Positions 12,046-17,111 of a DNA stretch of 37,407 nt are shown piece after piece (position 1 is the stretch's first letter; the number at the start of each line of letters is the position of its first letter). Under the pieces are notes generated by a model. That model saw only the letters and a list, made by a program, of their open reading frames with translations, had not been told where the DNA came from and did not search any database. The DNA lies in assembly GCA_020350405.1 (NCBI GenBank), contig CP070715.1:2119413-2156819 (forward strand). Reading direction: 5' to 3'. The translations under genes were made by a program, and so were the position numbers. This DNA is from Planctomycetota bacterium (GTDB lineage: Bacteria > Planctomycetota > Phycisphaerae > Sedimentisphaerales > Anaerobacaceae).

Positions 12046-12897
12046 TTACGCCTTGCCAGCCGAAGTCGGCGAGTTTTGACTTTGCTCCTTGGTGTTTTGC
12101 TCGCCGGGGGCAGCTGCTTCTGCTGAAGCGGCTGCATCAGCCTCACCGCTACCTAACTGATCTTTTGCCGGCACAGCTCTGGGCTGAACACGAACCCTTG
12201 ACTCTGCGCTGGTACGTCTGGGCAAACGACGTCGGCGAGTTTGCCTCGGCTCGATTTCCTCGCCAAATTTCCCTTTGTAAATCCAAACCTTAACACCAAT
12301 TGTCCCATAAGTTGTCCTCGACGTCGCCGTGGCGTAATCAACATTTGCGTCCAAGGTCTGCAACGGTATACTGCCGAGTTTCTGCGTTTCCTTGCGTGCC
12401 ATTTCTGAGCCTGCCAAGCGTCCGGCGCAAATAATCTTAACCCCCTTAGCGCCGGCGTTTATCGCGGACTCACAATATTGCTTCATTGTGCGCCTGAACG
12501 AGGCCCGTTTAGAGAGCTGCTCGGCAATTGCTTCTGCTACCAACGTAGCATCCAAGTCTGGCTCCTTTATCTCTATAACATTGACGCTCATCTTTCGCCC
12601 GGTCATCTCTTCGAGCTCTTCTCTCAACCTATCGACTTCGCCGCCTCTGGGTCCAATGACAACACCGGGACGAGCACTATAGAGTGTCACTTTCACCTCG
12701 TTGCGTGTCCGTACTATCTCAACCTTTGACACTGCTCCTCTAGGCATCTGACGGTTAAGTTTCTTGTCGATATATTCACGAATCCTCTGGTCCTCAATGA
12801 GAAAATCGCCGTAATCAGCCTTGGAGGCGTACCACGTGCTCTGCCATCCGCGCGTTATCCCCGTTCTAAAACCTATTGGTGATGTCTTCTGGCCCAT
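12046..12897 (-). CDS. rpsC: 30S ribosomal protein S3 with C-terminal extension
   Basis: The product has 283 residues. The family part (1 to about 225) includes MGQKTSPIGFRTGITRGWQS, the KH domain (about 40-110, VIGPRGGEVDRLREELE) and the SGRLAG-like CAGRLAGSEMARKETQKLG. S3 lies at the mRNA entry channel and takes part in helicase activity. Bacterial S3 usually ends near 210-240. Here an Ala/Glu/Gln/Ser-rich tail of about 50 residues follows, with no recognisable domain. It is located between rplV and rplP as usual. Confidence 0.97.
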   Translation of the reverse strand: MGQKTSPIGFRTGITRGWQSTWYASKADYGDFLIEDQRIREYIDKKLNRQMPRGAVSKVEIVRTRNEVKVTLYSARPGVVIGPRGGEVDRLREELEEMTGRKMSVNVIEIKEPDLDATLVAEAIAEQLSKRASFRRTMKQYCESAINAGAKGVKIICAGRLAGSEMARKETQKLGSIPLQTLDANVDYATATSRTTYGTIGVKVWIYKGKFGEEIEPRQTRRRRLPRRTSAESRVRVQPRAVPAKDQLGSGEADAAASAEAAAPGEQNTKEQSQNSPTSAGKA

Positions 12898-12939: not shown

Positions 12940-13488
12940 TCACACTTCTGCCACCGTTATATATATGTGACAGGCCTTTTTGCTAATAGGATGCGCTCTT
13001 CCTCTGTCCTTCGGCCTCCACCTTTTGGTGCCAATGCGTATCCCGGCGTCGTCAACGCGAGCCTGAGCAACATAGAGATTATCAACCTCGGCCTGTTGCT
13101 CATCGGCGTCTGCCACAGCACTTTTCAGGACTTTATCAACTATTGTTGCGGCACGTTTTCTTGTGAACCTCAGGATATCCATTGCGTCCTGGACGCTCCG
13201 GCCAATTATCAACCCCGTAACCAATCGGGCCTTACGAGCCGAAATGGGAGCAAAGCGACAAGACGAACGCCACACAAGCAAATCATTTAGCTCAGCAGAT
13301 AAAATGCTCGCCAGTCGGTTAATGTCCTCTTTACGCGGTATAGGCTTTAGAAGTCCCTTCTGCCAGTTTTTAACAGCCGCGGCCGCTTCCTGCATGTTCA
13401 GGCCTCCTCTGACGAGCTGACCGGCCAACTGCTCTACGCTCATCTGGCGCTGTTCACAAAGCCTTTTTAACTTATCAGCACTTAGCAT
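12940..13488 (-). CDS. rplV: 50S ribosomal protein L22 with N-terminal XRE-like helix-turn-helix extension
   Basis: The 182-residue product is two parts. Residues 74-182 are a complete L22: RFAPISARKARLVTGLI, RFTRKRAATIVDKVLKSAVA, VDNLYVAQARVDD, and a RWRPKDRGRAHPISKKACHI end covering the tunnel-lining hairpin. Residues 5-71 precede it and resemble a lambda-repressor/XRE fold: DKLKRLCEQRQMSVEQLAGQ, then a third helix NMQEAAAAVKNWQKG, then INRLASILSAELNDLL. Normal L22 has only a few residues here. The frame is open from ATG 13488, 28 bases after rpsS. Alternatives are an ATG at 13395 with a perfect AGGAGG seven bases upstream, and a GTG at 13275 that would give a standard L22 but has no Shine-Dalgarno. 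L22 identity is certain; the HTH call rests on pattern only. Confidence 0.93.
   Translation of the reverse strand: MLSADKLKRLCEQRQMSVEQLAGQLVRGGLNMQEAAAAVKNWQKGLLKPIPRKEDINRLASILSAELNDLLVWRSSCRFAPISARKARLVTGLIIGRSVQDAMDILRFTRKRAATIVDKVLKSAVADADEQQAEVDNLYVAQARVDDAGIRIGTKRWRPKDRGRAHPISKKACHIYITVAEV
13403..13408 (-). promoter_or_regulatory. Internal AGGAGG within rplV
   Basis: A perfect AGGAGG lies seven bases before an in-frame ATG (13395) inside the N-terminal extension of rplV. It could produce a 151-residue form lacking the first two predicted helices. The codons read Arg-Gly-Gly, so it may equally be coding coincidence. Confidence 0.3.
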
Positions 13489-13516: not shown

Positions 13517-13786
13517 TTATTTTATTTTCTTGCTTGAATGACCTTTAAAAGTCCGCGTAGGCGAAAATTCACCTAACTTATGTCCGACCATATCCTCCGT
13601 AACGAAAACCTTATTGAAGATTTTGCCGTTATGCACCAAAAAGGTAAAACCCACAAACTCTGGAATTATGGTGCACCTTCTCGCCCAGGTCTTTATTGGC
13701 TCGCGAGAACCCATATCAGTTAGTTTGCTAACCTTAGCAAATAACTTTTCATTAACGTATGGCCCTTTCTTGAGAGACCTTCCCAT
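13517..13786 (-). CDS. rpsS: 30S ribosomal protein S19
   Basis: The product has 89 residues: [19 protein letters not shown], then [20 protein letters not shown] and [20 protein letters not shown]. These are the standard S19 signatures. S19 pairs with S13 in the 30S head and contacts the A-site finger. It is 54 bases after rplB. Confidence 0.98.
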
Positions 13787-16680: not shown

Positions 16681-17111
16681 AACTTTCCTCTACGCCGCAG
16701 GTGAGGAAACACACCTTTGCAGATTCACGCCTCAAAATTTACAAAGCCCTGTATGCTATCAACTTATAAACAAAACGCAAAACAAAAAATCCTGTTCTTA
16801 GCGTACAGTTTCCTACTGGTCGCTATATCCAGATCGCTTAATTTTTGGCAGGAAAGGCACTTTTTACTGGCCGACTTTAATTGGCCTGTCAACGATTAGC
16901 AACGCAATATCAAGTCAATAAATTCGCCTTCCTTAAAGAATTGGGGTTCGGACCAATTTGTGACCCTTCCAATGCCATTTATCGGCTTTGGTGTACCCCT
17001 AAATCTCACAGAGTACCTATATATACCATCCCTGACCACTACCTTGCAGATATGCAACAGCCCAACTCGTAAACGCAAGGTCGTCCTTGACAATGCTCGC
17101 TACGGCTGAAA
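16681..17111 (-). other. Long untranslated leader before rpsJ
   Basis: If transcription starts about 7-8 bases after the -10 element at 17119, rpsJ has a leader of about 430 bases. It holds several short hairpins on the minus strand: CAAGG-ACGA-CCTTG (17079-17092), a TTGCA/TGCAA stem (17044-17057), and AGGTG/CACCT (about 16700-16717) shortly before the rpsJ ribosome-binding site. In E. coli the S10 leader is about 170 bases and binds L4. No homologous structure could be verified here. No tuf gene or fragment was found in this gap. Confidence 0.4.
16896..17093 (-). CDS. Possible small hypothetical protein in the rpsJ leader
   Basis: A 65-codon open frame starts at TTG 17093 and ends at TAA 16896. 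The residues near the end (GRVTNWSEPQFFKEGEFIDL) look protein-like, but I recognise no family, there is no good Shine-Dalgarno, and the start would be a TTG. It lies wholly inside the putative leader. It may be a chance frame. Confidence 0.2.
   Translation of the reverse strand: MSRTTLRLRVGLLHICKVVVRDGIYRYSVRFRGTPKPINGIGRVTNWSEPQFFKEGEFIDLILRC

Follow-up and report, generated by a model that had tools for sequence, protein, structure and literature searches.

Does the gene for ribosomal protein L22 in a planctomycete genome encode a helix-turn-helix (HTH) domain at its start, and what could such a domain do on the ribosome? This question arises from the window analyzed here, a stretch of 37,407 nucleotides from contig CP070715.1 (assembly GCA_020350405.1), for which a preliminary description had proposed about 73 extra residues of XRE-like HTH type in front of a complete L22.

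The HTH-L22 Gene and Its Reading Frame

The frame at 12940..13488 (minus strand) is rplV and encodes a uL22 of 182 aa that starts with an XRE-fold domain, in agreement with the coordinates and the length of the extra part as originally described. The XRE/lambda-repressor-like domain comprises residues 1-73 (13270..13488, minus strand; AlphaFold2, Foldseek and Pfam HTH matches), while residues 74-182 with the stop codon (12940..13269, minus strand; PF00237, Foldseek) form the L22 core including the tunnel hairpin. The gene occupies the position expected for L22 in the S10 operon, between its upstream neighbor rpsS (S19; 13517..13786, minus strand), from which the long rplV start is separated by a gap of 28 nt, and its downstream neighbor rpsC (S3; 12046..12897, minus strand). 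The core matches PF00237 over residues 78-179 with 101.5 bits (cut-off 28), which fits the proposed onset of L22 at about residue 74, and L22 also matches TIGR01044 with 95.7 bits (cut-off 73.65). The fold of the core retrieved L22 chains in Foldseek with E-values down to 3e-10; the tip of the tunnel hairpin was modeled with lower confidence (pLDDT 68-76). The HTH-fused copy is the single L22 in the whole 2.96-Mb genome.

The domain was compared among 80 named relative loci, all from Phycisphaerae (Planctomycetota) metagenome genomes, several of which are titled Sedimentisphaerales. All 80 exhibit an ATG at residue 1, N41-W42 and W73, and the frame, for which the preliminary description had envisaged a search for stops and frameshifts in relatives, is intact in each of them, with zero stops and zero indels. 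Full-length matches to the fusion were found in all 38 genomes with any match (the genome of the window and those of the same order). With median dN/dS values of 0.24 for the N-terminal domain and 0.09 for the L22 core (pairs with dS < 1.5), and with mean pairwise identities of 52% and 74%, respectively, the domain is, judged by its sequence, under purifying selection and evolves as a protein, faster than L22 yet clearly constrained.

A wrong start, with translation of L22 from about residue 72 and an upstream frame that is open by chance and untranslated, could be read from the GTG codon at 13275 (Val72) in the window and from the merely weak Shine-Dalgarno-like sequence preceding the long start, but this reading has to be set against an ATG conserved in 80/80 loci, a gapless frame and an omega of 0.24 across a large divergence, by which it was ruled out as a candidate. 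Moreover, no internal start is conserved: an ATG or GTG within residues 67-77 occurs in just 17 of the 80 relatives, and the start at GTG 13275 which the preliminary description had weighed against the fusion thus finds no backing in the alignment. At the level of these comparisons the wrong-start reading is nearly refuted, and the probability left to it is negligible. The HTH-L22 fusion is real and old.

Fold and Conserved Residues of the N-Terminal Domain

AlphaFold2, provided with 50 sequences (the window and relatives), yielded a pLDDT of 95.2 for the domain and of 88.9 for the whole protein. DSSP assigned four helices to the models, all encoded on the minus strand: helix 1 (residues 4-13; 13450..13479), helix 2 of the HTH (residues 18-25; 13414..13437), helix 3 in the position of a recognition helix (residues 32-44; 13357..13395), which contains the invariant residues A38, N41 and W42, and helix 4 (residues 53-62; 13303..13332). 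Together they form a lambda-repressor-like helical bundle, as is also indicated by Foldseek, and in the model the last HTH residues continue without any linker straight into the strand formed by residues 71-80. Against the PDB, the domain matched the XRE/lambda-repressor folds of C.AhdI, P22 c2, SinR and 434 Cro; further listed matches were phosphonate-processing enzymes, which presumably carry an attached HTH, and Mbf1 on the yeast disome (9f9s_CN). TM-scores were about 0.6-0.74 and probabilities 0.99-1.00, with E-values of just 0.04-0.2, in keeping with the short length of 73 residues. Single-sequence matches to the XRE families of Pfam are weak: the domain of the window reaches 19.4 bits with HTH_26 (E 0.0013), which is below the gathering threshold of 22 bits, the best alignment member matches HTH_19 with E 4.2e-6, and HTH_31 is matched by 13 of 20 alignment members.

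With the Cro/C1-type XRE families (HTH_26, HTH_31, HTH_19, HTH_3; Pfam clan HTH) the domain shares the order of helices, the fold and a WxxGxxxP motif after helix 3. It differs from them in about seven extra residues between the Leu-Ala of helix 2 and the Trp, in a longer helix 3 (12-13 residues), in a variable reading face and in being fused to a ribosomal protein. From Ala22 to Trp42 there are 20 residues, where a typical XRE domain has about 13, and the domain therefore lacks the short canonical turn between helix 2 and helix 3; in family f110 this region is three residues shorter. The models thus support an XRE-type HTH fold with an altered HTH core. Of the XRE-like HTH originally proposed, the fold stood up in profile, structure prediction and fold search of residues 1-73, while a standard core did not, given the long helix 2-helix 3 region and the unconserved DNA-reading residues.

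At positions 6, 27, 40, 44 and 48 (K6, R27, K40, K44 and K48), a basic residue, K or R, is present in no fewer than 43 of the 50 sequences. Further conserved residues are A38, N41, W42, G45, P49, P51, L59, A60 and W73 as well as the acidic positions E54, D55, E66 and D69; the net charge of the domain averages +3.5 (range -3 to +9). The beginning of helix 3 (residues 31-37) is variable except for A35, which suggests that specific reading of DNA may have been lost.

Distribution and Evolutionary History

A profile search for the domain yielded matches in 42 of 198 genomes of the class (E 0.01 or better), all of them in the frame of L22 and with one copy per genome; genome G411 exhibits a second, very weak match. 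Carriers are every genome of the order (Sedimentisphaerales) in which L22 was found and, in addition, the families f8 and f110, and several other Phycisphaerae families do not have the domain. In G399, a genome of the order without any L22 match, the candidate S10 leader RNA discussed below was located near the end of a contig, an indication that L22 is missing due to a contig break. No further domain-bearing L22 was detected by a profile search of 392 genomes of the phylum, in which a weak domain match (E 4.6e-4) in G214 lies within a frame of 912 residues. Between S19 and the L22 core there are 24-180 nt in domain-lacking relatives and about 220-320 nt in carriers, so that the former leave no space in front of L22 for an HTH gene in split or vestigial form. 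Nor was a stand-alone paralogue detected that could have donated the domain, the next-best matches in carrier genomes having E-values of about 0.04 or worse.

On a quick tree built from eight other S10-operon proteins of 59 genomes, the distribution of carriers requires at least three changes, and carriers as one clade were rejected (p 5e-10). In a profile-profile comparison, the domains of Sedimentisphaerales and of the other carriers match each other over 71 columns with E 6.4e-26. A profile restricted to Sedimentisphaerales matches the L22 domains of the other carriers with E 1e-10 to 1e-17. By these sequence comparisons, the carriers are separate lineages, the domains of which are nonetheless homologous. 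A transfer of the whole rplV between the two lineages is unsupported, as the L22 cores group by species, albeit in a short alignment. The history would be either that of an ancestral fusion with several later losses or that of a domain which moved by itself.

Possible Functions of the Domain

For the extra domain, the preliminary description had considered binding of rRNA near the tunnel exit and autoregulation by free L22. The evidence leans toward the former, because of the conserved basic residues, the lack of a linker, the lack of indels and the fact that the genome has no second copy of this protein, which is essential and acts early in assembly. The first step of 50S assembly requires L22 (PMC10931766), and a Cro/C1-type HTH which binds rRNA has a precedent in EDF1/Mbf1, which is wedged between h33 and h16 (PMC7486125). 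The absence of linker and indels in the sole copy of such a protein is also the reason why we favor a structural role of the domain within the subunit. We regard it as somewhat more probable than not that L22 of Phycisphaerae acquired an XRE-type HTH at its N-terminus, which turned into a permanent, rRNA-binding domain of the large subunit by the tunnel exit. After its fixation in the large subunit, the domain would lie on the subunit surface, adjoining the globular part of L22 at the tunnel exit, where K6, R27, K40, K44 and K48 would grip the backbone of 23S rRNA. It might aid early binding of L22 in 50S assembly or shape the exit platform, and it would no longer read a specific DNA site. On the other side of the balance stand the modest mean net charge of the domain (+3.5) and its absence from several Phycisphaerae families, and the conserved basic residues could equally hold mRNA or DNA. 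In a comparison of 23S rRNAs no insertion or deletion segregates with the domain, which rules out a compensating indel, and a search for a ribosome structure from the class Phycisphaerae found none.

A docking platform, by which a nascent-chain or assembly factor would be recruited to the tunnel exit through a protein-protein contact with the domain, appears rather unlikely. It would fit the place of uL22 as one of the four exit-site proteins around the tunnel (PMC5071890) and the conserved acidic residues E54, D55, E66 and D69 beside the basic positions, but no partner was identified. Somewhat less likely still is an autoregulator, i.e., a free HTH-L22 which binds DNA or leader RNA of its own operon and represses it at ribosome surplus. 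The XRE fold of the domain as well as two elements directly ahead of S10 in the order, a conserved promoter-like block and a new structured RNA, would be in line with this idea; the would-be DNA-reading residues are, on the other hand, variable, the HTH core is longer than the standard one, and no inverted repeat common to the relatives turned up when the region in front of the S10 operon was scanned for palindromes, by which a palindromic operator was rejected. In addition, f8, the second family with the domain that was sampled, yielded no match to the RNA element, so that this element does not track the domain and provides no evidence for binding of L22. The specific version in which L22 doubles as a sensor-repressor, with unassembled HTH-L22 binding the structured RNA between fusA and rpsJ or the promoter, is given a slim chance only. 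If true, it would represent a control of the S10 operon unlike that of E. coli, which is based on L4.

The conserved structured RNA lies in the fusA-rpsJ intergenic region (whole element about 16840-17110, 51-nt 5' part 17058-17108; minus strand), about 3.4-4.3 kb upstream of L22 where the position of L22 is known. It is preceded by a promoter-like TTGACA-17-TATCTT and exhibits covariation, with double changes in 6 of 14 pairs. Among 120 class genomes searched it was present with one copy per genome in 16 genomes of the order, and outside of the order there was one weak match. Rfam yielded no match above gathering and insignificant ones below, and no sequence resemblance to 23S rRNA was found. 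It is a candidate for an S10-operon leader or a small RNA. The promoter-like block TTGCGTTTTGTTTATAAGTTGATA upstream of rpsJ (about 16755-16785, minus strand) is conserved within the family; in the genome it is virtually unique, with one exact match and one with 3 mismatches.

Comparison With Known Systems

Mbf1/EDF1 also places a Cro/C1-type HTH on the ribosome, between h33 and h16 of the small subunit (PMC7486125). It is, unlike the L22 domain, a separate protein of the small subunit in eukaryotes and archaea, and the likeness between both is at the level of the fold only. Its stand-alone layout of an MBF1/zinc-ribbon N-terminal domain followed by a C-terminal HTH is not shared by the L22 domain, which is itself N-terminal with nothing before it. 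Extensions of ribosomal proteins are common and include L22; uL22 of Mycoplasma pneumoniae likewise carries a lineage-specific extension on this exit-site protein, which is described there as forming secondary structure and not as a folded HTH domain (PMC9534751). Chloroplast uL22 has extensions too, which are largely unmodeled and not described as a folded HTH domain (PMC5071890). A search of the open-access literature retrieved no published description of an HTH-L22 fusion.

The gain of a whole folded domain is rare among universal ribosomal proteins, and here gains or losses of the domain occurred repeatedly inside a single class. If fixed at the bacterial tunnel exit, a repressor-type fold would show the recruitment of a DNA-binding fold into the ribosome.

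Some minor observations concern the 23S rRNAs and the L22 cores. The sole 23S rRNA match in the genome of the window (L210 9423-9987; G000:C1:1147422-1147986) ends at model position 565 of 2925, probably due to a faulty assembly join. The 23S rRNAs of G027 and G386 (L212, L226) contain large insertions, which are possible intervening sequences: that of G027 measures about 290 nt and lies near E. coli position 1870, that of G386 measures about 450 nt and lies near E. coli position 1170. In the region of the tunnel hairpin, the L22 proteins of Sedimentisphaerales (L002-L035) carry three inserted residues around AGxRIGTK, and the domain-bearing L22 proteins of f8 (L036-L041) apparently use GTG as start and have the usual DEGP-type hairpin.
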